Below are positions 1 through 60,109 of a stretch of 64,000 nt of DNA, in pieces. This DNA is from Cubamyces lactineus. Its lineage: Eukaryota; Basidiomycota; Agaricomycetes; Polyporales; Polyporaceae. Numbering within the stretch: position 1 is the stretch's first letter; the number at the start of each line of letters is the position of its first letter. The position numbers and the translations under genes are program-made. The notes beneath the pieces are model-generated. The model was not told the DNA's origin, did no database searches, and worked only from the letters and a program-made list of their open reading frames with translations. The stretch is taken from the NCBI GenBank assembly GCA_022376465.1, contig JACDTU010000017.1, forward strand, positions 744,001 through 808,000, written 5' to 3'.

Positions 1-227
1 AGTCCCTCCTCGGCCACCCGCTCGTCATTGCACCCGCGTCTGGGCACTGCTCTAGTGGTGCCATCCCGGCGTCTTCGCCTTACGAAACTGTTGAGGACGA
101 GGAAGACGAACTCGCGCATCTTCCCGCCGTCTTCAATGTGCCGTTACCGTCGGGTGGTATGAGAGTCGAAGCGGCTTGGAAAAAAGATATATCAGAGGAA
201 GCTCCGCCTCCGTACAGGCCGCGATGA
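1..227 (+). CDS. CT1: C-terminal end of a CFEM-TM-PPxY family protein (partial)
   Basis: The reading frame is open from base 3 to the TGA at 225-227; the rest of the gene lies outside the window. The visible 74 residues are an acidic then mixed cytoplasmic-type tail ending EEAPPPYRPR. This ending matches the complete family members downstream (APPPYELR, APPPYEPRRT), which is the only reason for the assignment. The PPPY is expected to bind WW domains of Rsp5/Nedd4-type ubiquitin ligases, as known for that motif class. No CFEM or membrane segment can be seen here, so family membership is inferred from the tail and from the position at the edge of the array. Confidence 0.6.
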   Translation, partial: SLLGHPLVIAPASGHCSSGAIPASSPYETVEDEEDELAHLPAVFNVPLPSGGMRVEAAWKKDISEEAPPPYRPR

Positions 228-1278
228 TGTGTACGATGTTCCATCTCACCATCTTGTCAATGCAGCTCCTTATGTCACATTCGCACCCGCGAGCGCCTGG
301 ACTGTCAGTATGTACGATAGAAGTAGACGTCCAGCTCCGAGTTCCTCAAGATCCATACAGTTGGCCGAGCATAGAGACGGATGGGCCACAACAATTGTCG
401 CAACTCATCAGGTTCGTGTTCGTCACTGAGTCAACGTTCTATTCCGGCTTAGGTGGTAGCATACAGCATGGTTCGATTCTTGCTACAACGTCTTCAGCGG
501 CTGCTGTAGGTATGCCGAGCCCATCACCGAGCATTCTGAGAAGGATGATCGTTGCTGTGCTTTGCAGTACCACCCAAGCTCCTATCTTCGTTCGACGGGA
601 TCCTGTAAGCCAATCCAGTGGTCTAGACTCTGGAGTATTGACATCCGGCTACGCTGAGGTGCCACACCCGGACCCGGGTACGGCCCAACCCGCCAACTAA
701 CTCAGAATCTGGGAGAAACTCCAATCACCATCGACTGCTTCGCGCCGCCATCTGACGCCCATGATCGCTTCGCAGATGCAAAGTCAGTTCTCTCAGAGTT
801 CGCAGCATACTACCTGGCACTCGCTGACTTCGCTTTCTCACATCCTCCGTGGTATGCCATTGAAGCGGTATCTGCCACACCGTCTGCCGAACTTTGGAAA
901 ACAGCTCGTGGAGCCCGGAAGGCGCCTAGCCTAGTACTACGACCGCGCGTCTTTTGTATGACGAAGTTCTACAGAATACGGAGGCATCACAGTCCCTGAC
1001 GAGCTAACGGTTTCAGACTAGTCAAGCGTCTCAGGTTGTCGCTCAAGCGAAATTGTACGTCCTCCGCTGCGGTTAGGTAGCGCGAGTCACGTGCGCGAGG
1101 ACGACGTCGCGTCGTTCAGGCTTAGGCTGGCAGACCATAGGGTCCTCTGACAGCCCATGCGCGTGAGGATCATCTTGGCCTCATACCCACCTGCACGTAC
1201 AGGAACGCGGAATGCATCTCGCACTATTAAGTACACTCTCGATATTGAGTCTGTACATGCTAAAGCCCGACAGCAACG
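228..1278. other. Intergenic, with one unassigned open stretch
   Basis: No gene can be supported. A frame without start codon is open on plus from about 660 to 1000 and reads like protein (ITIDCFAPPSDAHDRFADAK) but I do not recognise it. Bases 540-560 share a 21-nt exact match with 4732-4752, so both may be remnants of an old repeat or gene. Confidence 0.4.
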
Positions 1279-2887
1279 TCAAGCAGCAGGCTCTCGCAGC
1301 TTCGCCTGGATGCTTCTGTACGTGTCGACCGCGGTCTCTCCGAGGCTTCGGAACGGCTTGAGCTGGAGAAGGCTAATCGTCTTGGACGAGTCGACGAACG
1401 CGCCTGGGAACGCAAAGGGGGGCGCGTCTGGGTTCCCGCGCACCACGCCTTCGAGGTCTGGGGCCACCTTGTGAACTGCGTCGTCTGTATGTGTGAAGTG
1501 CCCACTCGTCAACCTCTTTCCCTTACTCGAACGAGCGAAAGGTATCGGGACACGTACAGAGGTTCTGGTACGTGTACGCGCCCGCGTCGAGGAGGAGGCG
1601 CTCACCGCCGGCCTCCTCGACCTTGAGCGCGGCGACGAACGCGTCGGCTACATCGCGCACGTCGATGTATTCGGACGCGTACTCGTTGACCTTGTCGTCG
1701 TCGCGCGGGGTTGTGAGTTGCTGGTACATTACCTTGGAGGAGAGGTTGAGGTCGTCTATGGTCTTCCACTAAATTGCCATCACGGAGGTCAGTCCACAGA
1801 GCCTCTGCTGCTTGGTTCATGGGTGAGGGGTGCATACATCGTGAATGACTGGCTGCGTGGCATGCAGCATGGCGGTGTCAGTATCTTATTCTGTCAGACT
1901 TGTAGGAGCTTGTCATATCACTTACGCCGAAGATCTGCCAAAGAACGAGTCAGTAGATTGTCGAACAGACCTTCTGTTGCACGAGCGGAGTACTCACCCA
2001 TGCTGGTAGGATCCGCACTGCATCCCAGCCTATTTCGTTCTTATGGTTCTCAACGAAGTCGATGATCGCTCGCTCCGCGAGTACCTTGCTCGCGCGGTAG
2101 AGTGCCTGGCCGCCAGCCTCGCTGCCCTTCTCCTGCGCGAGCGCGAGGTCCTTCTCAGCCCAATCATCCTGCGCATTTGAACCCAGTAAGCATGGGAGCT
2201 CCTCCAGTAGTCCGTATCACCACGAACCTCGGTATAGACGTGAAATATGTCGTCGTTACCGAGCATTGCCTGCGCGGAAGACATATACATGACGCGCTTC
2301 ACATTCTTCCCACGTCTGAGCGTGCTGTTGAGGAGGTTGACTACACCATCTGTGTTAGGTCCGAAGATGTCTGATCGTCCCGATTGAATACGGGAGTGGG
2401 CGGGTATATGCTTAGAAGTTGAACACATTGATGAACGCGACATGAAACTCGTCCGTACCCGAAGAATTTGTAGCGTTGAGCTCCGCAACGCCAGCCTGGA
2501 TATCGCGTGCCCGTCGTCAGCGTCCCTGTATACTTGGGGTTCCTCAGTAGAGACGCGGAAGACGTACGACGTGGACTACAGCAGTGATCGACTCGTCGAT
2601 TGCGTTGTCGAACGCGTTGGGCTATGAGCAGGCAGTACAAAGTGTCATCAGAGCGTGATCGAGAGAGCGGGAGAGGGGCATGCCTTGGAGATGTCTGGTA
2701 CAATTACGGTTTTGAAGCGATCGCCGTGATTCTTGAAGGCCTCGGCGACATGCGCGCCCTTCTTGGGGTTGCGTACGGTGCCACGGACGTGGTAACCGTT
2801 GGCGAGAAGTGCGTGCGCGATCCAGATGCCACTGAATCCCGACACGCCAGTGACGAGCACGTTTCCAGGTGGCAGCACAGCGGGCAT
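1279..2887 (-). CDS. NAD(P)-dependent reductase, dihydroflavonol-4-reductase-like extended SDR
   Basis: Nine exons splice to 349 residues: 2887-2684, 2621-2568, 2495-2459, 2370-2228, 2168-1998, 1934-1926, 1852-1838, 1768-1558, 1484-1279. All phases match. The N-terminus holds the Rossmann motif VTGVSGFSG (about residues 12-20). NVKRVMYMSSAQA follows in the middle and YRASK is the catalytic Tyr-x3-Lys. VDVRDVADAFVAAL-type residues (YIDVRDVADAFVAALK) lie towards the C-terminus. Length and motif order fit fungal DFR-like ketoreductases, which reduce carbonyls of aldehydes or secondary metabolites with NADPH; the substrate cannot be told. Odd points: intron 1 needs a GC donor (AAG|GCATGC), and exons 6 and 7 are microexons of 9 and 15 nt coding IFG and PVIHD. 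There is no partner gene nearby. Confidence 0.85.
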
Positions 2888-5185: not shown

Positions 5186-6808
5186 ATGCGAGAAAAGCTG
5201 TCTCTTATTACACGGGACGCCTTCAGCGGTTCCGTCCCGTCGTGTGGTGCCAGCTGTATTACGTCCGCTGAATCCCGATCTCAATGTTCGAGGTAAGCTA
5301 CTCGTTCCGCTGTGAATTCGCGTCGTACAGTCCACCTGCCACCATACTACCAATGCAGGCTCATGCTTGCTCCTGCTGACAGCTGTACTCTCTCACTAGC
5401 GACGACACGTTCTGTTTGTGTACATCCGGAGATTTCCTCGAAGACGCACTCGAATGTGCTGTAAAGTCCTGCGTCGTCGATGATGCCGAGTCCACACAAG
5501 AAGTCCTGGAACACCAATGCCAAAACGCCATAGAAAATGGAGGTACGTTCCGTTTCGAGGATCCATAGCGCAATCGTTGTAGACTCATGCTGGTTCTCGA
5601 CACCATGCATGGTAGATCCAAATCGGCCGCGCAAGAGTACCACGAGTCAACCGGAGTCTTCCCCTACACCGACTCAAACCTCAACGCATACCACCGCTCT
5701 ACCATCCTCAACGTCTTTTACCAGTACTGACAGCTCCTTGGACATTGGATCTCCGACTCTCACATCTTCATCCTCTCCCCCTGCCAGTACCAGTCGGTCA
5801 ACCCAATCGGTATTCTCCTCTGCGTCGTCGAATCCGAGTGGCAATACCGGATCGCAATCGCATTCTACATCGAGCAGCATCGTCATCAGCTCTTCATCGG
5901 GTTCTACCGGGCCCTCTCCTGTGAGTGTCCAGAGGGGCGCATCCTCCCCATCCTCTTCTGCGAACAGTACATCGACATCTTTCCCAGCAATCCCGTCATC
6001 TTTGTCAGGAGCGTCTTCCCGTGGACCTTCGACGACGGTCATCGTCGCGCTCGCGGTGTCGCTCGGAGCTGTCGCACTTCTGGCGCTCGCGCTCTCGTGT
6101 ATTCTATGTGCTAAACGGAGACGACATCGCAGAGCCATGACCCCCCTGGAGGCGAATAGCTTCGAGCCTATGCCCTCACTGTCACCCTCGTCCAGGGAAG
6201 AGATCGTCACCGTGAGCCAAGGCGGCAGTCAAGGTACAGAGGTCCCCGAGGGGAAACACGAGGAGACTGATTCGGCCTCGGTGGCTTCGAGGTTGCCTAG
6301 CTCCGGCGATGGCGGCGTCAGGCCGTGTTCCTCCAACGCGGATGTCAACCAACCATATCACGGTTCTGTGGCTTTGTCGGACATCTCTACCGCGATGCAA
6401 CCACAGGAAACCGAACAAAGTGCACCTGTCGGATCGACGGAGTCCGAGTCGGCCGCGGTGGCGTTGCAACCTCTCACTGCGCAGGTTGACATGTCGCCTG
6501 GATCTATACGAAGTTGCGAGCTGATACCGGGCGGTGCACCGCCATCCACGCGAATCCTCAGCGAGCTGACGACGCCCAACTCGGAGAAAAGCACGAACCT
6601 GCCAACGATGAGCTCTGCGCGCGACTCGGACAACACTGCATCGGGTTGGCATCTCAGATCAAGTCAACAGGAATCCGGTTCCTTGTCATCTTCTCGATAT
6701 CCCCTGTTGTCGCCTCAGGCTACGGCTTCTTCGGGAGTTCGTGTCACGATATGGGACGAAGAGTTTATGGATGAGGAGGAGCCACCACCCTATGAGCCTC
6801 GCTCGTAG
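5186..6808 (+). CDS. CT2: CFEM-domain single-pass membrane protein with C-terminal PPPY
   Basis: Exons 5186-5292, 5400-5542 and 5616-6808 join in frame to 480 residues. The eight-cysteine CFEM domain runs from CGASC through CS and DDTFCLC to a final cysteine in VLEHQC. The Asp three residues before CxC, the position of the haem ligand in Csa2-type CFEM proteins, is present. A long Ser/Thr-rich stalk follows, then a transmembrane helix (IVALAVSLGAVALLALALSC) with a stop-transfer cluster KRRRHRR, and a tail of about 225 residues ending DEEEPPPYEPRS. The two introns sit at the family positions (phase 2 and phase 1). Oddity: the start chosen, the first ATG after an in-frame stop, gives no signal peptide, so a leader exon upstream is likely. 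Confidence 0.8.
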
Positions 6809-7333: not shown

Positions 7334-8283
7334 ATGTTTTTCGTCACCCACCTAGCGGCAGCGACACTCTCTGGCACTCTACTGCTTTCTGCGAATGCGT
7401 TGCCTCATCTACGTCGCCAGTCAAATGGGACGATCTCCACGTGCATCCTCGACTGCATGTCCCAGAACGACTCTTCCGATGGATGCGAGGACTTGTACGC
7501 AGGAAAGCGTATGTTGTTCTTGATTGAAAGCTGACACATCTCTTCATGCACTAGCACTGACCTTCAATGCATATGCGAGAATGCTGCTTTCTTACAAGAC
7601 GTGGTGCTATGCACCCAGAAGTCATGCGATTCGACGGATATCACTGAAGTTCTATCCGTGTACATAGGCGAATGCGGGCTGCCGGGTCAGTCTACGCTCC
7701 TTTGACCATTGGTCTGCTACATATTTGCAGACACTGATATTCGTCCCATATATCAGCAACGAACGATGGATCATCGTTGCCCAACGGTGCTTCGAGCTTC
7801 GTACCCACGAATGGCCCGCCAGGCATCGGCTCCCCCACCATGACCACGCCTACCACTGGAACACATAGTACAAGCACAGATTCTATGGTGACGCATAGCT
7901 CTGGGCTATCGCCCCTCCTGTCCCTCCCAACTCAGGCCTCATCGCTTCCGTGGAGCGATAATCTCAGTAGCTCAGCGGCCATATCATCGTCGCTTATAGG
8001 TGCGAATACCTCGCGCTCAATAACGTCGGGAAGCGCCCTAGCCACATCTCAGCAAGCTCTTTCGACCGCTAACACCTCAGGGACGTCTTCGGTCTGGAGC
8101 GTCGATAGTCATTCGTCCACGCGGACGTCGAACGCATCCGTTTCCAGTACCCAAACAGGCAACTCCTCGTCTGAAGGTCCCGAGGATGTGTCACTTTCCG
8201 GAGGGTTATCCTTCCGTTCTGGCGTCGTGTGGTCGTCTCTATGCTGTCTGGTTAGCGTGTTCGTGGGCGCGAGTCTCCTCTGA
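7334..8283 (+). CDS. CG1: small CFEM protein with GPI-type C-terminus
   Basis: Exons 7334-7494, 7555-7685 and 7757-8283 give 272 residues. A clear signal peptide (MFFVTHLAAATLSGTLLLSA) leads into a CFEM domain with all eight cysteines: CILDC, CEDF, DLQCIC, CTQKSC and a last one in GECGLP. The haem-position Asp is present in TDLQCIC. A Ser/Thr-rich region of about 150 residues follows, predicted to be O-glycosylated. The protein ends in a hydrophobic stretch (VVWSSLCCLVSVFVGASLL) with no cytoplasmic tail, as expected for a GPI-anchored cell-surface protein. It is a close structural partner of the PPxY-tailed genes but lacks their tail. Introns are at the two family positions. Confidence 0.85.
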
Positions 8284-8943: not shown

Positions 8944-10374
8944 TCAATTCCCGCTTGAGGGAGAACGCACATCTGAGTGCTCACCAGGTTGTATACCCCA
9001 GATAACCTGTATTTGTGTGGTCTTGCATGAACGGAAGATCGTCGTGCGTGCATAGAGTAGCACCTCTGCCAAAAGCGGGCGAAGAGCCGTCACGTTGTCG
9101 AAGTATTGCATGACAACAAGGGTGAGCTTAGGGAGCTCGCGGAGAGGCGAGTGGTGCAGCGCGATGTCGAGGGGCACGAGGTTATCGAGGAACTCGTTGA
9201 ACTCCTTCGGGCCGTCTTCTGTCGCGAAGTCCGCATAGTATAGCAGGAGGTGTTCTAAAGGCGCCTCTAGCTGAGCTACCCATGCGACGAGACGAGCATA
9301 GTCTGGGTGCGCCCTGCTACGCTCCTTCAGCACGTTCACGTGAAGGGTGCCTAAGCAACAGAGCCGACGGTATGACATCAGTTCTGGATTCGTATCCGAG
9401 TGTGCAAAGTAAGATCTTAGCTTCCGGTTTGAATGCAACTGCCTTACGACATTACTGACCTGGTGCCTCGTAAGGTATGCTCGTTTCTTCCAGGTACAAC
9501 GACTTGATTGTTTCTGCGGCTGCTTGGATGATCCCGTGTGACAACGGCTGCCAAACTTGGGGCTTATCCATGTGTGATTCGGCTTGTTAGTCAGCATCAG
9601 CTAGTGCCATTCATCACATACCTCGTTCTCTCCATCACTCTGGATAGCGAGCACTGTCAGCGGCGGAAAGCGACTGCGTGGAGGAACACGCAACTCCCGT
9701 ACTCCACGAGGGGTCCACGCGAACCCAACAAGCATCACTTCACGAAGATACCGGAAGGAAACCAAGAATGTCAGCAGGTCGTGGAAGGACCCCGAGCCCT
9801 TCCACGCAAGAGTCAGTGACGTGACGCCGCCAAATCCACGCAGAGATCTGAAGAAATATGGATGGCATCCCAGACCGCGTGCAAGGGTTAAGGTGAGGTC
9901 CCGAAGATTTGGCAGCTTTCCCGCAAGCAAGAGAGCCCATGTCCGCGAGATTTCCTCCCCTGCAGTCGATGATTGAGTTAACGACGGCGTAAAGTCCTCG
10001 TCGTTGTCAAGGACAGACAAGCCAAGAACGAGGGTTCTCAGCCACGGATTGGCATCCAGAGACTCGACCAGGAGTTCGAAGGAGGTCTTCTCGCAGCTTA
10101 TGAAGGTGAGGTCACGGTACAGGCACATACGACTTGTCGGTAGCCAAGCGCGACATGTCAAGGCACAAGAGCAGAGTGTGGACATCCTCATGCGACGTTC
10201 CAGGACTCCATCTTCTTCCATGGGTAAGTAAGGATAGAACGGCCCGAATTGCAAGATTATCTTCTCGAATATCTCCGTCGGGAAGGTCGAATTGAGGATA
10301 TCTGCAGAGTGGAATGAGTCGCGAGCTTGATCTTGAGCATCGGAAGGACGCCATGGGTTCCGGTCAGAGTTCAT
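8944..10374 (-). CDS. F-box protein, copy 1
   Basis: Three exons, 10374-9622, 9562-9460 and 9383-8944, join in frame to 431 residues. The N-terminal F-box-like region reads FPTEIFEKIILQF, then CSCALTCRAWLPTSRMCLYR, the usual form of basidiomycete F-box proteins. Leucine-rich segments follow (LPNLRDLTLTLARGL, VTSLTLAWKGSGSFHDLL). F-box proteins are substrate adaptors of SCF ubiquitin ligases; the substrate is unknown. Reading through the second intron gives a false in-frame TAA, but G|GTCAGT and a CAG acceptor remove it and restore homology to copy 2. The tandem neighbour at 11.3-12.7 kb is a clear paralog (ETSIPY, LLLYYADF versus LLLYYSDF). Start chosen as the first ATG before the F-box. Confidence 0.8.
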
Positions 10375-11296
10375 CGCTGTCGTGGTGTCCGTTGCTGTTG
10401 TCGTCGTCGTTATGGTTGAAGGTTAAGGTGATCCCAGCTGATGCCATTATTGAAAAATGGGCGCGCGTGGCGCTCGGGCCCCTTGGCAGGCAAGCGCTGC
10501 TGAGTTCCTATAGGGATGCTGCGGCCGCTGCGCGTCTGCACAACAACTACGTCGAGATACGTTGTTACATCTGTGTATCTGTATCTCATCTCTGATGTTA
10601 GACTCACTAGCGTATTTCCTGTCACTAGCGGAGAGGTTGAAGGCATTTGTTGAATATAGAGGCACGTCCACTGCAAGGAACGATCACTTTCTATGGTCGC
10701 GAGGATGAGTGTGGACTAACTAAAGCATATTAGCAGGACATTCCTCCATCAAATACAGTATACACAGACCGAAAGCTGACTTACATCGAAGGAATGGTGA
10801 GGCCGCCGAGGCACGGATACAACGCGTCTCCTCTGTAGCGCGCGGTCACGTGGTCGCGTTGGACGCGTCAGGTGTTGGGCGTCGGGCATCGTGTTGTGGC
10901 CTGCTTGTGGCCTACCCGCTTCCCTATATCGTTACACCTATGGCAGATCTACCCTACTACAATTTTCTAGTTTATCAATCCAATTCTCCCCTACCACGAT
11001 GCCGGTGCAATTTGTATGTGGGCATTGATACCTCGAACTTCAAGTTGGAGCCCGTGCTGGACTCCGCTCTGTCTCCAATACTGATATCGAGTTCGACACA
11101 GTCTTTGCGGTATTTACATCGACCTAATCCTGCACGAACATATAACCCCTAACCTTGGACAGGGTCACAAGCCCAGCTCAATGGGGGATGTGCAGGTCCG
11201 GAGGCAGATGTGTCCAACTCCGCATAACGCCATCCGCGGTATAGGATAGATACGTCCGTATTCTGCCCTCTATATTGGAAATCGTCAACGCTGGCG
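10375..11296. other. Intergenic between the two F-box genes
   Basis: Contains the upstream region of F-box copy 1 and the downstream region of copy 2. A GTTGCTGTTGTCGTCGTCG run lies at 10388-10406. No gene recognised. Confidence 0.4.
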
Positions 11297-12717
11297 TTAG
11301 CTAGGCTTCATGAGAGCTAGTGTAAAGCACCAACCAGGTCCCATCACACCCCAAACCACTTGTAATTGCAAACGTATTTCCTTACAGAGTCGGAAGGTAT
11401 TGGAGAATGCGTAGCGCGTTGCATCCGCGACAGATGTGCCCATGTCTACCCCATCGCGGGTAAATTGTGTGACCACTAGTGTGAGTTTCGGAAGCTTCCG
11501 GAGTGACGAGTAGCGTATGGCGACGTCGAGCGCAATGAGATGGTCGAGAAACTCCTTGTACTCCTTTAGACCATCTTCTTCCATGAAGTCCGAGTAATAC
11601 AGCAGGAGGTGCGTTAGGGGTGCCTCCGTTTGCAATATCCACTTGGCAAGGCGATGGTAGTCCGGGTGCTCCGAGTCTAATGTCCAAAGCACTTGCACGT
11701 GGAGGGATTCTAAGGAAGACAGTGGACGACACGGTGTCGATTGTTCGTCTGGGTCTACACATATTAACGTCATTTCTCGGGAGCGGACGAATGTTGTGCA
11801 CAAATAGCCACCATGGGAATCATACGGTATGCTAGTTTCTTCCAAGTACAGCGTCCTGATGGTAGCTGCAGCCGCATATAGGATACCGTATGTTACTTGT
11901 CTCCAAAGCCTTGGCTTCATGATGCACAACATCCCATACAATCGTTAGCTAGCATCATGGGAGATTGACTGTGTTGTTCACATACCCTGTTCCCGCCGTC
12001 GCTCTCAATTGTCAGCGCCGTCAGGTGCGGAAAGCTCCTGTTTGCAGAAACGTGCAACTCCCACCTACCACCCGGCGTCCAAAGCGAGCCGTGGATCATG
12101 AGGTTGCGAAGAGATGGAAACACCAGCAAAAGTTTGAGCAAGTCCTGGAAAGAGCCCGAGTGCTTCCATGCGAGAGACAGCGAAGTGACGGTACTGAATG
12201 TCTGCAGAGCGTTGATGACATGCGTATGACACGCCAGACCGCGTGCAAGGGCAAAACCAATGTTTTGCAGGTATGGTAGCTTTCCTGCCAGCATGAGGGC
12301 CCATGTATGGGAGATACTCCCTGAGGTGGCCGAGGGATGAGCCAGGGGAGGCGTAAAATCTTCGTCATTGTCGATGATGCTGAGACCTCGGACGAAGGTT
12401 TGTAGCCATGGATTGCTATTGAGTGATCTGACGAGGAGTTCAAAGGGCATCTTCTCACTGCTAATGAAGGTAAGCTGGCGGTACAGGCAAATACGGCTTG
12501 TCAGCGCCCATGCATGACATGTCATAGCACAGGAGCAGAGCGTGGATAATTTCTTGCGGTAATCAAGGAAGTCGTCTACCTCCAAGGGTAAAATGAGTCT
12601 ATGTGGACAAACTTTGCGAATGATTGCCTCGAATATCTCCGTTGGAAATGTTGGATGGCACATCTGGAAGAGATTGAGTATGTTGAGTATGTGCGTTGTA
12701 TCAGCGCGATACAACAA
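11297..12717 (-). CDS. F-box protein, copy 2
   Basis: Exons 12717-11986 and 11914-11297 give 449 residues. The F-box-like region is FPTEIFEAIIRKV then CSCAMTCHAWALTSRICLYR, followed by leucine-rich repeats and a C-terminal half matching copy 1 (LYLEETSIPY, LLLYYSDF, LRKLPKLTLVVTQF). A 63-nt segment equivalent to intron 2 of copy 1 starts with GT and ends with CAG but stays open in frame, so it may be spliced or retained; removal would give 428 residues. The frame is also open upstream of the chosen ATG, with an acceptor-like CGCAG, so a short first exon is possible. Expected role: SCF substrate receptor. Confidence 0.8.
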
Positions 12718-13152
12718 TGCATCGAGGTCTTTATCTTCTTCGTGGTACCGGTCCAGAACATCTCGAAGTAAACACCTGCGTAAAGCATGTGACGACTCGG
12801 TCTAGTCCATCGTACCTGTCTGTGGTCTTCTGCTCACCTGTCAGGAAATGCCCTGCGTCGAAAAGCGAAGCGTCTGAATCGTTAAGACCTGACCTCTAGC
12901 CTCGTTTGTAGTTGCAGCCTTGTCAGTGCAGGTGGGAAAGTGCTCAGCACAGTAGCGCGCGCTCTTCGGCGCTTCTGTCCGGAGACTCCATGTACACGCG
13001 CCGCCCTGCTCACCACTGTTCACAAGCCTCAGCTCTCTTGCCTTCGTTCCATATCTTCGTTACATCTAGTATTTGTTCTGTTCCTGTGTTTGTGCTACTC
13101 ATACTTCTTGCAATCAGCGAAATACCCTCTACTGGGATACTGGAATCGGCCC
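12718..13152. other. Intergenic between F-box copy 2 and the retroelement
   Basis: Upstream region of F-box copy 2. No gene recognised. Confidence 0.4.
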
Positions 13153-13157
13153 TTGGC
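13153..13157. repeat. Target site duplication of the chromovirus, left copy
   Basis: TTGGC directly precedes the left LTR and is repeated at 22523-22527 directly after the right LTR. A 5-bp duplication is usual for Ty3/gypsy integration and fixes both ends of the element. Confidence 0.9.
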
Positions 13158-13622
13158 TGTTATGACGAGCCTAGATCGGTCACGCGGTGGCTGAGCTAGG
13201 GGTCACGTCGCCTCGGAGAATAACGAAGAGGCGAGTCAGGGATTGAAGATCTTCTGAGAAGAGGCGAGTCGGGGTTCGGTGAATAGGCAATAGATAACCA
13301 GATCAAGCTGAGGTTCTTCAAAGAAGATCCTCGGCTTATATATATACATGGCCGAGACTAATAATAGACCGGATCGGTAAGCAAATGTTCAGTACGGCTA
13401 AGTATAGCTGGGGCTGACTGTACATGAGAATGAAGGTGATGTATCATGAGAATAACTGACGTGTCGCTGACGTGGCATGGGAGGATGCAGCTAAGTATAC
13501 AACACATGAGTAAGCTGTGGCAGGCTCGGCCTCCGAAACGTAAGCACGATACATAAGCATAGGACAAGTCACGAGACCAAGACATAACCGTAACAATGGC
13601 CGTGTCACGCACCATCGTAACA
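13158..13622 (-). repeat. 3' LTR of the chromovirus
   Basis: Begins TGTTATG and ends CGTAACA, an inverted terminal repeat. The copy at 22058-22522 has the same length and about 96 percent identity by eye. It holds the TATA-like TTATATATATACATGG, which on the minus strand would drive transcription in the element's direction. Confidence 0.95.
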
Positions 13623-13633
13623 TTACCCCCTTC
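13623..13633 (-). other. Polypurine tract
   Basis: On the minus strand this reads GAAGGGGGTAA directly before the 3' LTR. This is where the plus-strand primer of an LTR element is expected. Confidence 0.8.
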
Positions 13634-13658
13634 GTATGGTTGACGACGACCTCGTTGT

Positions 13659-14054
13659 TCACCAATCGTATTCGCAATTGTTGAGCCCGTCCGGGCCCTG
13701 GAGACCATGAGCGGGGTCATTGAGGGTAGCATTCGCGAGTTCGACAGGGGCCTGTACTCCCCATGGTGTGTTTGCGCGCGCGTCTCTCGTTGCCTCCTCT
13801 AGCGAACTCGGATAGAACTGCGAGTTGTTTGTCAGGGCCTGGCCATATGGGGGTGGCGGTATGACCAGGGCTTCTTCCGGGTATGCAGGTGCTGCGGTCG
13901 CAGGTCTTGTTGAGGGTTCATAAGACAGCGAGTGCGTTCGGAATTGAACGTCTGCGAATGGGATCCAAGGCACCGCTGTTGAGGGCCCAGGGTTGGCAGT
14001 GACTGGACCAGCTACCTCCGGAGCGTAGGGTGTCGGTGGTCGTGCTTGACGCAT
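13659..14054 (-). CDS. Extra retroelement frame, C-terminal part with PPPPY
   Basis: 131-codon frame from ATG 14054, rich in Pro, Ala and Ser, with IPPPPYGQA near residue 70. It lies in the same frame as the coiled-coil stretch upstream and is separated from it only by TGA codons at 14211-14213 and 14100-14102. Since the pol stops of this element are also TGA, the three pieces may once have been one protein of about 430 residues. PPPPY is a PPxY motif like the late domains by which retroviral proteins recruit Nedd4-type ligases; whether it works so here is inference. No homolog is recognised. Confidence 0.5.
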   Translation of the reverse strand: MRQARPPTPYAPEVAGPVTANPGPSTAVPWIPFADVQFRTHSLSYEPSTRPATAAPAYPEEALVIPPPPYGQALTNNSQFYPSSLEEATRDARANTPWGVQAPVELANATLNDPAHGLQGPDGLNNCEYDW

Positions 14055-14210
14055 CGACGTGCGTCGCGCTACACGAGATTCGACTCCTTGTTCGAGTCGT
14101 CACTGTATTATTGTCGCCTCTCGTGCTCGTCGGGTGTAGTTGCGGTGGTCGTGCGGTAGGTACGTGTAGTCCTCCCGCAAAGATCCAGGGATGGTATGGT
14201 ACATGGCGGG

Positions 14211-14717
14211 TCATTTGCCGGACGGAGGTTCGAGCAATGGAAGGAGATTGCGAGTGTACGGCTGGTGTCGAACGGTGAAGGAAGGGGATTCCATGTATTG
14301 GACGAGGTTTCGCCACTCTCGACCATTGCAGAGCCAGAATCGGCTGACGGACGCCTCGACGGAACGGGCGTACTCGGTGACTTCTTGCACCGATTCAAGG
14401 ATGCGCTCGGCATCGTCTTCGTAAAGGTGGGTGATGTCGGTGACTTCCTTCCTTATGTCATTGACAACCTCTTCGACGTGGTCCAGCGCTTCCGCGACAG
14501 TCTTCATGCTCCTCTGTATCCTGCCAAGTTGGCCGCGCGTGTCTTCCCTGATCAGGGACGCTGACCCTCGCAGATTGACCAGATGCCTGCAGATGTGGCC
14601 GAACTCCCGCACGTCGTTGAACATGTCCCGATATCTGGCGAGCGAGTTGACTAGCTCGGGATCAGCGCGCACCGCATTGATGAGGGGTCTCGGATCCGTG
14701 AGGAGGGCATTGACAAG
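14211..14717 (-). CDS. Extra retroelement frame, coiled-coil part
   Basis: About 168 codons, open directly after a TGA and lacking its own ATG until MFNDVREF. Heptad-rich helices dominate (QLGRIQRSMKTVAEALDHVE, VVNDIRKEVTDITHLYEDDA), so a rod-like or oligomerising segment is likely. It continues the frame of the PPPPY-bearing segment upstream across TGA 14718-14720 (context CGA TGA CTT). Expression would need readthrough, or the stop may be decay. At its end the sequence AAATGACCC overlaps a further ATG frame (14214-13918) of low complexity that I do not trust. No known family recognised. Confidence 0.45.
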   Translation of the reverse strand, partial: LVNALLTDPRPLINAVRADPELVNSLARYRDMFNDVREFGHICRHLVNLRGSASLIREDTRGQLGRIQRSMKTVAEALDHVEEVVNDIRKEVTDITHLYEDDAERILESVQEVTEYARSVEASVSRFWLCNGREWRNLVQYMESPSFTVRHQPYTRNLLPLLEPPSGK

Positions 14718-14960
14718 TCATCGTCCTTCTCGCGAATTGGGTTGGTCGGCGAGAGAGTCATTCGTAGCGAGCGACTCTAGATCGGACGTTTTGTCCAGTT
14801 CTTCAGGGTCGCTGTCTGCTTCGTCCGTCTCATCGTCATACGGAGGAGGAGGAGCCGCAGGAGGGGGAATATTTTCTTGGTCGCTTGGGTTTAGCGACTG
14901 CGCGGAGGTGACTGAGAAGCTTTCCGGGGTTAGGTTTTCCGTAAACTCGAAGTTAGGCAT
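14718..14960 (-). CDS. Extra retroelement frame, acidic segment with PPPPY
   Basis: 80 codons from ATG 14960, which overlaps the stop of the preceding small frame (ATGCCTAA). The sequence is acidic and disordered with ENIPPPAAPPPPYDDETDEA at its centre. The frame is also open upstream to an ATG at 15044. It ends at TGA 14718-14720 and continues in frame into the coiled-coil stretch. The PPPPYDDE motif resembles WW-ligand late domains. Family unknown. Confidence 0.5.
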   Translation of the reverse strand: MPNFEFTENLTPESFSVTSAQSLNPSDQENIPPPAAPPPPYDDETDEADSDPEELDKTSDLESLATNDSLADQPNSREGR

Positions 14961-15105
14961 GGTTGGGATAGATGGGGAGGCTGTCGGCAGGGATGTCACG
15001 GTGTTCGATGGTGAACTCGATGATACGAAGATAGAGGACGGCATAGGCGAGGATCCAGAGGAGGGCGAGGAGGAATGTGATGGTCATGCACACGACAACA
15101 ATCAT
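14953..15105 (-). CDS. Extra retroelement frame, 50-residue membrane peptide
   Basis: Starts at an ATG overlapping the preceding stop (CTATGA) and codes a 50-residue peptide. Its first half is one strong hydrophobic helix (MTITFLLALLWILAYAVLYL), followed by a short polar tail. Its stop TAA lies inside the overlap with the next ATG. The ATGA coupling and membrane character match its neighbours, which is the evidence that it is real despite its size. Confidence 0.5.
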   Translation of the reverse strand: MIVVVCMTITFLLALLWILAYAVLYLRIIEFTIEHRDIPADSLPIYPNHA

Positions 15106-15560: not shown

Positions 15561-15634
15561 GGTGAGAGATTCAGGCGAGTTTCCTCGCCTTTTTATACCT
15601 CTCGAGGGTCTCGGCAGTGTTGAACTTCCAGGTT

Positions 15635-16135: not shown

Positions 16136-16154
16136 TTCCAGGTTCAGAAGTTCG

Positions 16155-22522: not shown

Positions 22523-22527
22523 TTGGC

Positions 22528-44473: not shown

Positions 44474-45574
44474 TTATATGCAATGCTGAGAGAGCTCATC
44501 GTACGCGGGAGGTGGGCCGAGAGAAGTCGTATTGGACTGGGTATCGACCTCGCTACGCGGACTGGCTGATATTGCCCATACATCCAACGAGTGCATCGTT
44601 CCGCGATGTGCCCATACGCCTTGGAAGCGCTGAGTAATGAGGGTGCGCCTTGAAGGGGCTCTGGGGTGTGGGGCGGTGAAGTGGGATACCGGGGCTATCT
44701 GTACCTGTTGTGGATGTATCGCCGCCAAGTCGCCACCACATTTCATATCAGCGTCTTCTGTATATGCAACATCGCCATCGCCGTCAGTCAAAACGGAATA
44801 GGTAGAGGAAGCGCTGCCATTGCGACCGCGAAGGCTGAGTGCGCCTAGCGTAGAAGTAGGGCGATGCGGGGGGCGCGTGTGACTCTCGGCGACCGAGCGG
44901 AGCTGGCGTGGGGAGGAGAGGGTGGTCACGATCTCATTGTGAGAAACAGATGGCTGTGTGCATTGGACAGGTGGCACGAGTGAAGAGACTCGTCGACGCT
45001 GTAACCGGCGAGCAAAGATAACCGCGCCAGCAAGGACAGCAACTCCCAGAGCGATGGAGACTACGATTATGGCTATCTTCATTTGACGAGCCATATAGTC
45101 GTGTGAGCCGGTGAACGATTGACCTGGTGCTACTGTATCGGATGCTGTAGATGTTAACATTAGGAGGTGTATTGGAATGTATTAGATCGGCACCATCGGG
45201 ATTTGCAGTAAGATAGTTAGTAGGAAGATAGAGATTCTGATGGAATACTCACCCATGAATGTCGCACACCTCTCCGCAAGCTCTGCCTGGACGCCGAAGG
45301 CGAACGTGTCCGTGCACAGTTCGTGAAGGCATTTCACGAGGGTAGCTTGATTGGCGCATACGCAACTCTCTTGCAAGAGGCATGTATCTTCCAATCCAAA
45401 TAGTGCAGTGTAATCATCGAAGGGACAAGCGCCACTGCCGACGATAAAGGGCGTGGAGGAGACGGTAGTCGAGGTGGATCTGGTGCTTGTCGGGCCAGTA
45501 CTTCCTGAGCAGACTGCAAAAAGTAGTCCAAAGATTGGATAGTAGCCGACGATGAGCTGCGTGAGGTACTTCAT
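44474..45574 (-). CDS. CT9: short CFEM-like TM protein with PPAY tail
   Basis: Exons 45574-45253 and 45144-44474 join in phase 1 to 330 residues. An ATG 18 bases upstream (45592) would add MSGVTK. Leader MKYLTQLIVGYYPIFGLLFA. The CFEM-like domain has seven cysteines: the second is Tyr (ACPFDDY), then TCLLQESCVC, CLHELC and ERCATF; there is no Asp before CxC. The stalk is very short. The helix IAIIVVSIALGVAVLAGAVI is followed by RRLQRRR. The tail ends SLGPPPAYDELSQHCI, in which PPAY keeps the PPxY pattern. A degenerate CFEM with a conserved PPxY suggests the tail is the constrained part. Confidence 0.83.
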
Positions 45575-47799: not shown

Positions 47800-49407
47800 T
47801 TACGAAGGGCTAGGTCGATACTCGGAGTGATACGGCGGCGGAGGCTCGGTCTCCTTGTCCCTCACGTCCGTCGTCATTGAACTTCGTGCAGCTATCTCCA
47901 GCAGGCGCTGTCCGACCATCCACGGGAGCACCAAAACCCGGGGATTGCCACTCTCGTTGGCGGGACCCGCAGAATCGGTCACTATCGACGACGCGATGCC
48001 GCCGTATTCGAACTCGGCGCTTGACCTGGCTGCCGACTGGTGTGTTCCATTCCAAGAGTCCAGCCGTGAGCTGGTAGCTGAAGCGTAGCGCGGCGCTGTA
48101 ATCCCAGGTACGTTGTAGGTGGTAGGAGGAATTAACGGCGTGCAGATGGTGGATTCAAAGACCCGGAGGTCGTCGGGACCCATCCCAAGACCGCCCTTTC
48201 CCGAGTCCGTGCGCGCTGGGAGGCTAAGATCTTGGTTATCCGATCGTTCGCTGTGCGTAAGACTTGCATAGGACATGTTGCGCTCTCTAGCCGTTGGTAG
48301 AGGGATCGGAATCCCGGAGTGCGCGAGGGCGATAGATGGCGACTTGGTCACCGTTGACACATCGCCATAGTTGACGGAGGATGGACTAGACGCCCTGGCG
48401 GAGCAATGTTCTCCGGTAGATATCCTGCTCGTTTCCTCGCGATGCAAGTTGAGGACGAGTCGAGGTTGCGCTGTGGGCTCGACAGAAGCATCGGAGTCTC
48501 CTTGACCGTAGTTCCGCGGGTCCACGAGCGGTTCTCCGAGCTTGTCACAGGTTGGAGGGCGAGACGTGCGCGGCCTTCGCGGAAGGGTGAAGTTCGACGT
48601 CAAGCCGTGTCGCGAGGACCTTTTCCAGAAGATTATAGCGATGACAGCGAGAGCAATGAGTATCAAAACTGGAAGCAATACCGCGAGGAGAAGAAATGAA
48701 CGGTGCGGAGGCAACGAGCTTTGGGCTGCGGTGGCGGTCTCAGCAGGGTTGGCGGGTGGGGTAAGTGGTAAGATGGCCGTTGTACTGCTCGATGACATGA
48801 GTGGGATGTAAGGGTTCGCAGTAGGGATGGTATTGATAGGATCGGACTCCTGCGAGGTAACGGCGGGCCCTTTTGAAAGTGTAGTCATACTTGGGATGGC
48901 TGTCGCTGTTGTTGAGCTTCGGGTGGGAATCCCTGTGGATGTCGAGGCCGGTTTGGTGGTAGTCGTCGGGATGGTAATCAGAGGGCTAGATGGCACGCTG
49001 CTTGAGGAGCTTGCCGTGGTGCTCGATGTAGCACCGCATGCTATCTGATAGACATTCAATGCATTGGATACCTCTCCAGGGCATGTTTCGGCGTAGCACT
49101 CTGACAACCTCGAGTAGAACAAGGATGTCGAACATATACATGATTTATCGGCTCTATCGAAGTGCCAAGACCATGCGAAGATGAGTACAATTGATATGGA
49201 CAACACACAATAGGGTGGAAGCACGGGAAAAGCCCGTACACACGGGGTTGGCGAATAGAGGACTTACATGTTTTTGCAATCAACCTCTTCCGTAGCTTGG
49301 AAGAAGCACTTGACCGCACAATCGTCTCGAGAACTCAAATCGGTGTGCATCCAGCTGCGGCGAAGGTCGTAAGTTGCGGTGTCCAGGGAACCGGCCTCGA
49401 GGAACAT
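47800..49407 (-). CDS. CT10: CFEM-TM-PPxY membrane protein
   Basis: Exons 49407-49268 and 49153-47800 give 497 residues. CFEM cysteines: CAVKC, CKNI, DKSCIC, CYAETC and QIACG, with the haem-position Asp and the family's phase-2 intron; the post-CFEM intron is absent. A Ser/Thr stalk is followed by the helix LLLAVLLPVLILIALAVIAI and KRSSRHG. The tail carries VLVLPWMVGQRLLEIA and ends KETEPPPPYHSEYRPSPS, very like CT11. The first in-frame ATG (49407) gives no signal peptide, while hydrophobic codons (LIFIHLSPFILVIS) lie directly upstream in frame, so the true start is probably upstream in an exon I could not place. Confidence 0.78.
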
Positions 49408-52514: not shown

Positions 52515-53672
52515 ATGGTTATCGTAGTGGGCTTCCTTGCGGTGCTTCCGCTCTTTGTGTCCAGAGGCAATGCCGGGGAAAGCAGAGGGACACCCACCGA
52601 TGCTCCCGGATTCACTCTCACACCCGGGATGCCAGGACAGACTCCATATGATCCCTCGCCAACCCAATGTGTGGATACATGCTTTACAAACATTGCCGTA
52701 GAAGTCGGCTGCCAGGATCTGTGAGTGCCATTGCGAAAAAGTCTCCGTCCTTCCCCTCGAAAGTGTGTTATCTTTCGCCTTCAACAGGATGCTCATACCC
52801 CTATCACCCCGCAGAAGCAACACTTCATGTCTGTGCTCCAATATCAAAGCCACGCAAGTCCTTTCCAAGGCAGCTCTGTGTCTACAGCAGAATTGTCATG
52901 GAGAGTTCCTGAATACTGCTCAGTACTACGAAGAAATATGCGGTCAAGGTGAGCCCTACTGTTCTCACATTCTCATCGTCCGGCGTATCGGCTCCCAGAG
53001 CCCTATGGTCAAGATTAGGCCAAATTCTGCCCGTTGCCTTGCCTGCAGGTGTTGTCTTTCTTTCCATCTATCCATCTATCCATCCACCCATCCATCTATC
53101 CATCCACCCATCCATCTATCATCGCATCTGTCCATCGCGATCACGTGATCGCGTCAACATTCGGCGCGACTGCGATCCGAATCCGCTGCAGCTCAAGTCT
53201 GTTGCTAACCCATGAACGCTTCCCAGAAACGCATCCTACTAGTCAGAGCTCTGCTCTACTGCCCGGAACCGGCAGCACGATTGTCACCTTCAGCTCGAGC
53301 ACAACCGATTCGGGCCACACCGGCACCGAGCCGACAAGAACCGACCCGTCCGCCACTGTATCTCCAACTACAGTGACAGTCATCAATGGTGAAAGCAAGG
53401 CCGCATCCACGGCCCTACCCAGCGCCGGAAGTGGAAACTCGGAGAAAGCGGGAGACGGCGTGAGTACGGCTGCACCCGCATCGAACGCGCAGGATGTGTC
53501 GGGCACGGGAGATGCGGTGACCCAGACGGTCACTGACGAGGTGTCGAGCAACACGAGCGCGCCCGGAGTCAACTCGCATATCAACGCAGGAACGTGCGTT
53601 CAGAGAAGGATTGCGGCAGGGCTCTTACTGGGCGGCCTGTGCGGTTTCTTGGGCATCGCTTCCGTGTGGTGA
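52515..53672 (+). CDS. CG5: CFEM-like protein with hydrophobic C-terminus
   Basis: Exons 52515-52720, 52815-52948 and 53227-53672 give 261 residues. Signal peptide MVIVVGFLAVLPLFVSRGNA. Cysteines: CVDTC, CQDL, NTSCLC, CLQQNC and EICGQG. Asn replaces the Asp before CxC. The stalk is Ser/Thr-rich. The end is CVQRR followed by IAAGLLLGGLCGFLGIASVW, compatible with a GPI signal, though the two Arg could also mark a tail-less membrane anchor. The second intron holds a CATC-type tandem repeat (about 53065-53125). A degraded second copy of this gene lies at 56.8-57.4 kb. Confidence 0.82.
53065..53125. repeat. Short tandem repeat CATCTATC/CATCCACC in the CG5 intron
   Basis: About seven units of 8 nt such as CATCTATC and CATCCACC. 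A shorter version (CATCTATCCAACTATCCATC) occurs in the CG5 relic near 56849. Confidence 0.7.
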
Positions 53673-54313: not shown

Positions 54314-55950
54314 TCATTCCCGATTACCCTGTCGTGATAGGAGGTGATAGGGAGGAGGAGGCTCTGTTGTTTCTCTGTCTGCAGGATGCGATGTTCCTAC
54401 GTGTGCGAGCTGTGGGGGATTTGCGGCCGCTAGGGACAGTAGATGCTGCCCGAAAGCCCATGGAAGTACGAGCCTGAGCATACGAGGTTCGGCATTCTCA
54501 ACTGGGCACGAATGGGTAAACGTGCTAGCGGCAGCTTCGTTCGCGGACCCGGGATGGACTCGTAACCTATTTCTTTGTAGCGCGTTGGCGGGTAGAGATT
54601 CCAGTTGTATCTCTGAGAACGAAATAAGCGGGAGCGCCTGAGATCGTATGATTTAGCAACATACCTGTTTGGTCCTTCTCCTGATCTGACACGTCGGGAT
54701 CGGTTCCAGTAACGGCGCCGTACTCGATTGTTTGATCAATGTGCTCTTGGGCACCTTGGCGAGACTGTCGTATGGAACGATTCTCGCCATTCAGACCTAT
54801 GCGCCCGGGCTTGGATGACTCGCTACGGTCTGGTTCGAGGATTGCGAGCTGCCCACGGCGCCTGGTTTCAACAGGTGAGCCGTACAGAGCTAGATCGCTA
54901 TGTGCTTCTCTGCTAGCGATATCTCCGCGAATATGCCAATCGGGCCCAAGTGAAATTCTTGTGAATAACGAACGAGCTTCTACCGCGCTATCCTCTCGTC
55001 GTTCTCGCCATAACCCCAGATGTTCGTCGCAATTTCCGTCCCAGGACAAAGGAGGAGGTGACCCAGAGCCACGCGCACGTGCGCGCTTGACTGGCCTAAT
55101 TAACGGACGTCGCGCTCTAAGGCATCTGTAGAGGATAATGACGACAGACAGGAGAACGACGAAGACAACAGGAAGCGATATGATGAGCGCGATAGGCCGT
55201 GGGTGCGACTCGGATGAGGACGGTGCAGGCTTGGAAATGGTAGGCGGAATGGACGAGCTGGAGCTAATAGTTGCCGTTGAGCTATCAGGCCCGCTGGTGG
55301 CGGTAGTGTAACTTGGAGTTGCGGTGCTAACGCCGTACGGTACTGGCGTAACGTTCGAGAATGCAGTCGATGTGGATGAGGGAGTGGGGCTCGAACTAGC
55401 TGGAGTGACGGACTCGCTGCTGGATGTCGAACTTGTAGAGGCCATGATCGTACTCGCTCGCTCGGAAGTACTGGTTTCTTGTGCCATTGTTGTTGCGATG
55501 CTGTGCGTGAGTGTTTTGACGGCCGAGCTGGATATGGAGCTTGAAGATTGAGACGGAGGCGGAGTGTCGCCTCCTCCACATAACGTTCCAAAGTAGTATG
55601 AAGCAGTGACGTTTGATTGATTCGACCCGCAGTTTATAACAACGCATGCCATAGTCTTTCCAAAGAAATTTGGGCCGTCGTGGTCCAAATTGCATACACA
55701 CGTTCGATTAGCCCTAGGAGACGGTTGGAAACTGTATGAGCATCTCGTATAACAAAGTTTACCACGCCCTAAAGAAAAGAACCCCTTCTCGAGGCTTGTG
55801 CAATTCAACTCACAGACTCCCGCAGCCTGCTGCTTGAGCGGACTGGGTAAAGCACGAGCCTACACATGGATCTGGCTGGCTGACAGAGTCTGAAAGACTG
55901 TGGAACGCGAAGAGAACGATTGTGAGGAGCGAAAGGGAGAGTATGTTCAT
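54314..55950 (-). CDS. CT11: CFEM-TM-PPxY membrane protein, PPPPY in a separate last exon
   Basis: Exons 55950-55814, 55731-54665 and 54612-54314 give 500 residues. Signal peptide MNILSLSLLTIVLFAFHSLS; cysteines CVGSC, CGSL, RTCVC, CVVINC and TLCGGG, with no Asp before CxC. The helix ALIISLPVVFVVLLSVVIIL is followed by RCLRARR. The tail exon carries RLVLPWAFGQHLLSLAA and ends TTEPPPPYHLLSRQGNRE, matching CT10. If the 52-bp last intron (GTATGT...CTCAG) is kept, translation stops at 54567 after 413 residues with no PPxY. A longer frame upstream of the chosen ATG exists, but the signal peptide supports 55950. Confidence 0.85.
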
Positions 55951-56829
55951 GGATGAGGGTTTCAGTGGTCCGTTGTTGAAGCCCGACGTAGACGCGAGGG
56001 ATATATGCCAATGGAGTTGCGTACGAGACTCGGCAAAATTCTGGCTGGCAGTCCCCATGATTGATCGAACAAAGATGCAGAGAAGAGGAGGCGGAATGAG
56101 CTTCACAATGTACCCTGATGCTGGTGGAATGAGTAGTGCCAGTACTATACCTAGGATCCGACCATATGATCCATGCCGACATGATGGGAGCGTATTCGTC
56201 AAAGCGATCACATCACCTATACTATCCTTCAGATGTTCTATGTTGTATCGTGTAGGTCTTACCATCTCGGGTAGAGTACGTCACGATCGTACCCGTTTCT
56301 AGACACATGACCAATTCGGTCGAGAGGACAAATAGTAGGGCGATACGTGTCGAGACGGACAGCATGAAAGGTGAGCTGCGACGAGTCAGTAGCTAGTCCG
56401 ACAAGACCGCGACGAGGTACCTATGAGGCAGGCGGATTTCCGCATCTATGACTCTGCGGCGACAACACTGAAACGATAAGTGCGAAAGGCTGAGGCCGTG
56501 ATAGTTGGCGTATTCCCAGTTGTCCGAACAAGCTGGTATGCACGAAGAACGTAGATGTACGTTATCGTGGCTGTGACCGCAAAAGCAATACGGTAATGGA
56601 AGCTGAAGGAAAGCGGCAGCGGCCCATATAACCTTGATAGTGATAGTGAATCAGAACGAGGTGATAAGGCATATGTATTCTTGACCGCACTCCACGTCCC
56701 GGGATACGGGAAGCATCGCTCTCATCTTGCTGATCCAGGTGCGTCTTTCTGCGTCCATTCTCCCGTCGTAGGTAGTATGTGGCACCATCTGCATCATTGT
56801 TCTCGCTCTGATCGTAGCCGCAAAGTCCA
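55951..56829. other. Upstream region of CT11 and flank of the CG5 relic
   Basis: No coding frame supported. Confidence 0.35.
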
Positions 56830-57390
56830 CCCTCCTTTCTCCAACGCCATCTATCCAACTATCCATCACGTTGCTCTGTCAAACACGATCACATGGTCGC
56901 GTCAGAACGACGCGCCTGCGATCCGAAGGCCATTGACCTTTGTATGCGCTCCTACAGCAGGCTCAACATTCCTTGATGTGAGCTCGTAGATACCAATACC
57001 ACTGATGTTTGCCGATAGCAGGACGACTGTGGCCTTCTGCGCTTGCGACCGCCGTGCGGGGAGTACGTTCACATGACTGACACCACGAAAGCCGCCGTGC
57101 GGCATGACTCCCATGGCGACGACGCTGTCAGTGCTTCCTTAGAGCGAGCAAGGTCTAGGGCGAATCCATATATCCACAGAGCGTCAGTGGTAGGAGCTCT
57201 GACAACGCAAGAGACGGCGTGAGCGCGTTTGCGCCCGCATCGGAGGCGCAGGATGTGTTGGGCACGGTCGCCCAGACGATTACAGATCAGGCCTCAGGTC
57301 TCGATGATAACCACATCAGAAGGCCATGGCTCGGTTCACATATCAATGCGGGGGCGTGTGTGTATGGAGAGACTGCGGTGACAAGTAAAG
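56830..57390 (+). pseudogene. Relic of a CG5 copy
   Basis: The part 56840-56935 matches the CG5 second intron (CATCTATCC repeats, GATCACATGGTCGCGTCA). The part 57180-57370 matches CG5 exon 3: DGVSAFAPASEAQDVLG against DGVSTAAPASNAQDVSG, and SHINAGACV against SHINAGTCV. The CFEM exons are absent and the ends are lost, so no product is expected. Confidence 0.75.
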
Positions 57391-60080: not shown

Positions 60081-60109
60081 ATGGCCCCTCGCGGTGTCCG
60101 TCCCCGTCG

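Follow-up and report, generated by a model that had tools for sequence, protein, structure and literature searches.

A tandem array of CFEM-type surface proteins in Cubamyces lactineus, many of whose single-pass members carry a PPxY motif near the end of a predicted cytoplasmic tail

We analysed a window of 64,000 nucleotides from the wood-decay polypore Cubamyces lactineus, a member of Polyporaceae in the Polyporales (positions 744001-808000 of contig C9, JACDTU010000017.1, 818610 bases long, in an assembly of 36.3 Mb), which holds a tandem array of genes for surface proteins with CFEM or CFEM-like ectodomains. Splice models were assembled manually on the basis of open frames, scores for splice sites and the cysteine pattern. 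They comprise 15 complete genes and g1, which is cut by the left edge, so the sixteen loci counted in a first-pass annotation were recovered, with the qualification that g6 contains an in-frame TAG. The two relics reported with them were also found, one related to the 3' flank of g9 and the other to exon 3 of g16. Ten complete genes (g2, g5, g6, g7, g8, g10, g13, g14, g15 and g17) encode tailed proteins with one membrane helix, which together with g1 make up the eleven expected. The other five (g3, g9, g11, g12 and g16) have, as anticipated, a glycosylphosphatidylinositol (GPI)-type C-terminus, a class assigned by hydropathy only. The array members in the window are listed below (TM, transmembrane helix).

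1-227, plus strand: g1, 3' end of a tailed gene; tail 1-224; PPPY codons 204-215
5186-6808, plus strand: g2, CFEM, stalk, TM, 237-residue tail; PPPY 6782-6793; end EEEPPPYEPRS
7334-8283, plus strand: g3, CFEM, Ser/Thr stalk, GPI-type hydrophobic end; no PPxY
22931-24512, plus strand: g5, CFEM, stalk, TM, 194-residue tail; PPPY 24474-24485
25261-26785, plus strand: g6, CFEM, stalk, TM; in-frame TAG at the membrane border; PPPY 26741-26752
27324-28864, plus strand: g7, CFEM, stalk, TM, 189-residue tail; PPPY 28841-28852
29828-31525, plus strand: g8, diverged CFEM-like domain, stalk, TM, 209-residue tail; PPPY 31496-31507
32291-33393, plus strand: g9, CFEM, GPI-type end
33969-35690, plus strand: g10, CFEM (22.9 bits), stalk, TM, 219-residue tail; PPPY 35655-35666
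36660-36740, plus strand: relic, 80% identical to the 3' flank of g9 (33511-33592)
37337-38478, plus strand: g11, CFEM, GPI-type end
39245-40548, plus strand: g12, CFEM, GPI-type end
41193-42713, minus strand: g13, cysteine-rich CFEM-like domain, TM, 259-residue tail; PPEY 41253-41264
44474-45574, minus strand: g14, cysteine-rich CFEM-like domain, very short stalk, TM, 179-residue tail; PPAY 44501-44512
47800-49407, minus strand: g15, CFEM, stalk, TM, 276-residue tail; PPPY 47830-47841; NCBI start further upstream
52515-53672, plus strand: g16, CFEM-like eight-cysteine domain, GPI-type end; start of exon 2 uncertain
54314-55950, minus strand: g17, CFEM, stalk, TM, 254-residue tail with one intron; PPPY 54347-54358
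57211-57267, plus strand: relic, 86% identical to part of g16 exon 3

The tailed proteins share one layout, namely a cysteine-rich domain, a Ser/Thr stalk, a single hydrophobic helix and a tail of 159-276 residues. In all ten, the net charge within 12 residues past the helix is +2 to +5, which by the positive-inside rule supports the cytoplasmic placement of the tails proposed earlier. A hydrophobic N-terminus exceeded a simple threshold in 11 of the 15 models (exceptions g2, g5, g6 and g15). When the last exon of g1 was read across the left edge, it encoded a short stalk, a TM helix and a tail with the end APPPYRPR; the helix lies just outside the window, within the 270 bases preceding it. 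The TAG of g6 coincides with the helix end, and the frame past it is otherwise open as far as the PPPY. This stop may have arisen recently by a nonsense change, may give rise to a truncated product, or may be an error in the sequence. Two introns at fixed places, one in phase 2 before the exon with the DxxCxC motif and one in phase 1 directly after the domain, had been ascribed to the whole family. Of the 15 models, 11 have both; g15 and g17 have the first only, and g13 and g14 the second only. Junctions were scored in one round with a reward for the phase 2/phase 1 pair and in another without it, and the pair was also the top model without the reward in g2, g3, g5, g6, g7, g9, g12 and g16. 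An extra stalk intron considered for g15 was rejected because the NCBI protein reads through it; this protein also shows g15 to be without the second fixed intron. A third intron of g8, at 30637-30713 in the stalk, is probably of the GC-AG type (GCAAGT donor).

Each complete tailed protein contains exactly one PPxY, followed by 3-19 residues (10/10), in agreement with the position near the tail end first noted for it, and the motif is found in none of the five GPI-type proteins. It reads PPPY in eight of the ten and is mostly preceded by an acidic run. Further elements stand before it: VLPWMVGQRLLEIAA in g15, with LPW relatives in g8, g10, g13 and g17; a GLSRSDL-like element in g5, g6 and g7; and HPRFLAVLMDLQ in a further tailed member at 575 kb on the same contig. 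This member and the ten from the window formed the set of 11 tails used in composition tests. When each tail was shuffled, a PPxY came to lie within its last 27 residues in 0.1-0.8% of trials, a range that covers all 11. Among mechanically called open reading frames (ORFs) of at least 100 residues in the window, 12 of 227 had a PPxY in the last 27 residues, ten of these being last frames of array genes and two unrelated frames. The corresponding count was 2 of 258 ORFs at 14 other loci, which are not a random sample, four holding other CFEM genes and the rest being loci from WW and HECT searches or flanks of the window. We consider it probable that the PPxY is a selected cytoplasmic WW ligand, and this is the best-supported step of the mechanism proposed below.

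Relatives outside the species were searched for with g15, the 575-kb member and the CFEM region of g12. The g12 region yielded 12 candidates, none of which passed, the window's own record being missed as well; for the relatives of the other two, orthology was presumed. The g15 model is identical to the NCBI protein C8Q73DRAFT_191285 (P0001), annotated as a hypothetical protein of Cubamyces lactineus, and its relative in Trametes cubensis (P0002) is 51% identical over 90% of the searched region. For the 575-kb member, the search gave one relative in Cubamyces menziesii, at 48% identity with 99% coverage, and one in Cubamyces sp. BRFM 1775, at 55% identity with 62% coverage. The annotated P0002 and P0005 are without the CFEM exons and P0004 has part of them only, and the comparison therefore covers the tails. 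Pfam showed no match for a piece of P0004 60 residues long. PPxY is retained in the relatives of both tailed members, that is, in three other fungi, which bears out, for these two members, its predicted conservation in related species. Between g15 and the Trametes cubensis protein, 29 of the 34 residues ending at the PPxY are identical versus 109 of 243 in the remaining tail (Fisher p 6e-6), and for the 575-kb member in three Cubamyces the figures are 27 of 34 versus 121 of 314 (Fisher p 6e-6), the sequence HPRFLAVLMDLQASDDQD-x-PPPYQPRPEG being common to all three. Equally conserved 34-residue windows (5 of 244 and 24 of 315) all start 9-35 residues before the motif, and therefore no other part of the tail matches this conservation. 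In an AlphaFold model of P0001 made from two sequences (mean predicted local distance difference test score 36.9), the TM helix is the sole confident part. Residues 521-534 (VLPW...LLEIA), just before the PPxY, form a weakly predicted helix within a block that is unchanged in the relative from Trametes cubensis, and may be a second docking element. Searches of the species' own genome with the tails, which were six-frame, limited to a few best candidates and insensitive, found matches in array members only.

CFEM ectodomains had been assigned to all members. The Pfam CFEM profile (PF05730) scored above its cut-off in 11 of the 15 ectodomains of the window (g2, g3, g5, g6, g7, g9, g10, g11, g12, g15 and g17) and in the 575-kb member; g8 reached 12 bits against a cut-off of 22, and g13, g14 and g16 gave no match to this profile. 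These four are rated CFEM-like only. When the 15 window ectodomains were aligned with that of the 575-kb member, seven Cys columns proved invariant in all 16 sequences and an eighth was present in 15 of 16 (exception g14); g13, g14 and g16 retain seven or eight of the eight. Identity to g9 ranges from 18 to 52%. The best solved relative of g9 is Csa2 of Candida albicans (PDB 4y7s, 'Surface antigen protein 2', E 0.0047). The column of the Csa2 Asp three residues before the CxC pair holds Asp in ten of the 16 ectodomains and Asn in two (g16 and g17). We take this Asp of Csa2 to be the axial haem ligand. In the available portions of two reports, the conserved CFEM Asp coordinates the haem iron, and Rbt5 and Pga7 in which it was replaced by Ala had essentially lost their binding to haemin (PMC9635878, PMC4183699). 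For the 12 Asp/Asn members, judged by this column, haem or a ferric chelate would be the likeliest ligand, and the haem link first mentioned for CFEM proteins may hold for part of the family. GPI-type members had a single origin in 0 of 200 bootstrap trees, built from 64 saturated columns; a single change is all that the starred branches of this tree require, and labels put in random order were equally good in 500 of 500 cases.

The Rsp5-type ligase expected to read the motif has a candidate gene on contig C5, with three strong WW domains in one frame, confirmed by Pfam, then HECT exons, and preceding frames that are C2-like by eye; this layout is that of the Rsp5/NEDD4 type. The three best WW scores genome-wide all fall in this protein, and five further WW matches lie outside it, on C1, C41, C27, C8 and C13. 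Presence of the gene in the genome is an opportunity, not an interaction.

Most likely the tails would serve to attract Rsp5, which would direct the receptor or its partners into ubiquitin-dependent sorting, in the manner of single-pass PY proteins in other systems. The ectodomain would be situated in or on the cell wall, held on the Ser/Thr stalk, and the tail would consist of a fast-changing, probably disordered spacer whose functional part is the conserved C-terminal module, made up of an LPW-type or other hydrophobic element, often an acidic run, and then the PPxY. The PPxY would dock the WW domains of an Rsp5/NEDD4-type ligase and thereby place it at the plasma membrane; an Rsp5-type ligase is the presumed partner because WW domains of this kind have a known specificity and its gene is found here. 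The receptor, with cargo of its CFEM domain or of a GPI-anchored CFEM partner, would then enter ubiquitin-dependent endocytosis, a step that we infer from Rsp5 biology and the haem literature. As a whole, the reading of the tailed CFEM proteins as receptors sorted together with their ligand by Rsp5-dependent endocytosis is tentative, and we place it slightly below an even chance. In the Candida CFEM haem relay, as described in the accessible text, the route from GPI-anchored wall proteins to endocytosis dependent on the endosomal sorting complex required for transport (ESCRT) is unclear and a transmembrane partner is expected (PMC9635878). The same ectodomain on GPI-type and on apparently Rsp5-docking TM stems offers a testable form of this relay link in basidiomycetes, and the tails of the array provide a natural series for how a PY motif sets receptor fate. 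A more specific proposal, a polypore CFEM relay divided between GPI-anchored capturers and Rsp5-coupled TM receptors of one tandem family, in which the same domain binds haem or another ferric chelate in the wall and takes it through ubiquitin-driven endocytosis, with interchangeable PPxY and GWHPSRMVR tails (see below) setting receptor fate, seems to us unlikely in its entirety.

Several observations weigh against the reading as sorted receptors, and part of them come from upstream. The array had been annotated at positions 1-57390; it continues to the left on C9, from about 691 kb. A detector of stop-to-stop frames with a stalk, a hydrophobic helix and a basic border found seven frames in C9:681400-744000, none of them ending in PPxY, and missed an eighth tailed frame at 719.8-720.9 kb that ends SEVPPPYE. 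Thus a PPxY end is present in one of eight upstream stalk-TM-tail frames. In this count, last exons joined by splicing were followed for the two genes adjoining the left edge of the window; in the other five a PPxY may be hidden in such an exon. Those two genes carry GWHPSRMVR and end EEMGVAM and GELGMAM, and their ectodomains gave no match to Pfam CFEM. Among the seven frames without a PPxY end listed below, several have GWHPSRMVR-like motifs and three end EEMGVAM, GELGMAM or GETGMAL; g2 has a GWHLRS stretch besides its PPPY. In the window the detector found eight frames, seven with PPxY and the eighth belonging to g17, whose last exon is separate, and it missed g6 and g14. On 15 other loci it returned one frame with PPxY, that at C9:575 kb, and none at the other 14. 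The coupling of the array to PPxY therefore applies to all complete tailed members of the window and not to most of the frames found upstream, and the motif marks one subfamily of the array. The stalk-TM-tail frames without a PPxY end, and a relic of their tail type inside the window, are as follows.

L023 2580-4266: stalk-TM-tail frame without a PPxY end
L023 6098-7784: stalk-TM-tail frame without a PPxY end
C9:691.6-692.8 kb: stalk-TM-tail frame without a PPxY end
C9:694.0-695.3 kb: stalk-TM-tail frame without a PPxY end
C9:696.6-697.8 kb: stalk-TM-tail frame without a PPxY end
C9:714.8-715.9 kb: stalk-TM-tail frame without a PPxY end
C9:716.9-718.2 kb: stalk-TM-tail frame without a PPxY end
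917-1135 of the window, plus strand: tail relic, 43% identical to the GWHPSRMVR-type tail found upstream, three stops

Other points on the same side concern the ligand, the tails and the precedent. Four of the 16 ectodomains (g8, g10, g13 and g14) have neither Asp nor Asn at the Csa2 column; haem is on this basis an unlikely ligand for these four and hence for the family as a whole. No iron or haem genes were recognised among the neighbouring frames viewed, where no systematic search was made. The tails are poor in lysine (34 Lys, 1.35%, and 224 Arg, 8.9%, in 2520 residues of 11 tails), compared with 3.7% Lys and 6.9% Arg in 728 residues of the C5 ligase exons, which serve as a comparison and not as a genome-wide background. 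The tail itself therefore need not be the ubiquitin target. Of the tail lysines counted, three of four are invariant in the relatives for g15, and three of six for the 575-kb member. The scarcity of lysine fits either a few sites reserved for ubiquitin or an adaptor for which another protein is the main substrate. A comparison of g8 with g10 speaks for the reading as sorted receptors: non-synonymous change (dN, given with the synonymous rate dS) is lowest in the TM segment (dN 0.12, dS 0.88) and the last 55 residues (0.24, 0.92) and higher in mid tail (0.52, 1.21) and the stalk (0.84, 1.36). These rates are rough, with a gap splitting the PPxY and the domain part poorly aligned. Finally, in Candida albicans the transmembrane step is assigned to the FRE-related Frp1/2, according to the available text (PMC9635878).

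An alternative with the same docking step is that the tailed CFEM proteins are Rsp5 adaptors, which bring the ligase to other membrane proteins such as transporters, reductases or receptors, a role demonstrated or put forward for Rcr1/Rcr2, Commissureless, PRRG4 and ENTREP. Action of the tail on other cargo would be nearly as plausible as receptor endocytosis because of the precedents of Rcr1, Comm and ENTREP, and lysine-poor tails would allow a protein to deliver the ligase without being its main substrate. Comm1, PRRG4, Rcr1 and ENTREP bind NEDD4-family ligases via PY motifs, and, as far as the accessible passages go, Rcr1/Rcr2, Commissureless, PRRG4, CYYR1, Shisa and ENTREP resemble the array proteins in having a small or cysteine-rich ectodomain, one TM and a cytoplasmic L/PPxY; their ectodomains are unrelated to those of the array, and the same passages describe no tandem arrays with GPI-type siblings (PMC5578492, PMC8811627). 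A weak match of g2 to the Pfam RCR profile (PF12273; 12.7 bits, E 0.23) lies below the cut-off of 27.8 and is no evidence of homology. A pure adaptor needs no diversified extracellular CFEM domain, and part of the tail lysines are conserved, and we regard this explanation as possible, if somewhat unlikely. It is more doubtful still that the locus is a recognition or sensing array for environmental, cell-wall or self/non-self cues, in which the tails are signalling modules and effectors dock alternatively on the PPxY ends or on the upstream ends of the GWHPSRMVR / G-x-x-G-(M/V)-A-(M/L) kind. The tandem, strongly diverged ectodomains (18-52% to g9), the two tail subfamilies within one array, and the relics and interrupted copy, which recall birth-and-death families, are all consistent with such an array; ubiquitin sorting, however, already accounts for the PPxY dock.

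The remaining explanations do without ubiquitination. Stalked single-pass proteins resemble yeast wall sensors, and with five WW matches beyond the three-WW ligase the PPxY might bind another WW protein, the tails then organising the cortex or a wall-integrity pathway. Since the best WW scores belong to the HECT protein on C5, we consider this improbable. Least credible is that the PPxY ends are a non-functional by-product of proline-rich, GC-rich tails. The tails are indeed rich in Pro, Ser and Arg, and the two unrelated window frames also end near a PPxY by chance, but the per-tail p is 0.001-0.008 in 11 of 11, the position at the end is fixed, and the motif is conserved in relatives and absent from all five GPI members; chance was rejected by shuffling, by the Fisher tests and by the conserved windows around the motif.

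Compared with known systems, the reading as sorted receptors combines familiar parts. The GPI-anchored Rbt5 and Pga7 and the soluble Csa2 of Candida albicans share the CFEM domain with the array, and five window genes have a GPI-type end; four of these five have the Asp aligned with that of Csa2 and the fifth has Asn. Unlike the Candida hemophores, the GPI-type members here are interspersed with TM members of the same family. Bcin07g03260 of Botrytis cinerea likewise has a CFEM ectodomain with the axial Asp, one TM helix and a cytoplasmic part, but it is a single gene in an ascomycete, and the sections available describe it without mention of PPxY (PMC7409268). CFEM-type Pth11 G-protein-coupled receptors, as presented in those sections, also have CFEM on an integral membrane protein, but with seven TM, whereas the array proteins have one TM and a PPxY tail (PMC7409268). 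Fungal ferric reductases have a predicted CFEM-like fold on a membrane protein with Asp/Asn at the metal site, together with a reductase domain that is absent from the array proteins, and the related Frp1/2, without a CFEM-like domain, act in haem uptake, in the part of the article at hand (PMC9635878). Tandem CFEM genes, GPI CFEM proteins, a single-TM CFEM protein and PY-motif membrane proteins are thus already known from the portions of the literature consulted. In that literature, which covers few subscription journals and preprints, no publication was found that joins CFEM to a C-terminal Rsp5 dock, and none relevant to Rsp5 and PPxY in basidiomycetes. A co-mention of CFEM and PPxY proved, in the text available, to be the xylanase name 'Ppxyn1' and not the motif, and CFEM and Rsp5 were mentioned apart, Rsp5 once for the siderophore transporter Sit1, with no link between them in the passages retrieved.

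Other features of the window lie between or beside the array genes. A chromovirus-type long terminal repeat (LTR) element separates g3 from g5.

13158-22524, minus strand: chromovirus-type LTR element; LTRs 13158-13624 and 22058-22524

Its LTRs are 95.7% identical, and a chromodomain adjoins the integrase C-terminal domains. Past these lie several additional frames, of which one has hydrophobic stretches and two contain PPPPY; a Pfam search of three of the additional frames gave no match. On the minus strand, 9604-10422 and 11920-12801 form a tandem pair that is F-box/leucine-rich-like by eye, with 71-73% DNA identity in two stretches and no match in a Pfam search. A subtelomeric position of the array was considered and rejected, no telomere repeat having been noticed in the last 711 bases of contig C9. 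On the right, the array is bordered by two tandem copies that are O-methyltransferase-like by eye (57489-62600, minus strand).

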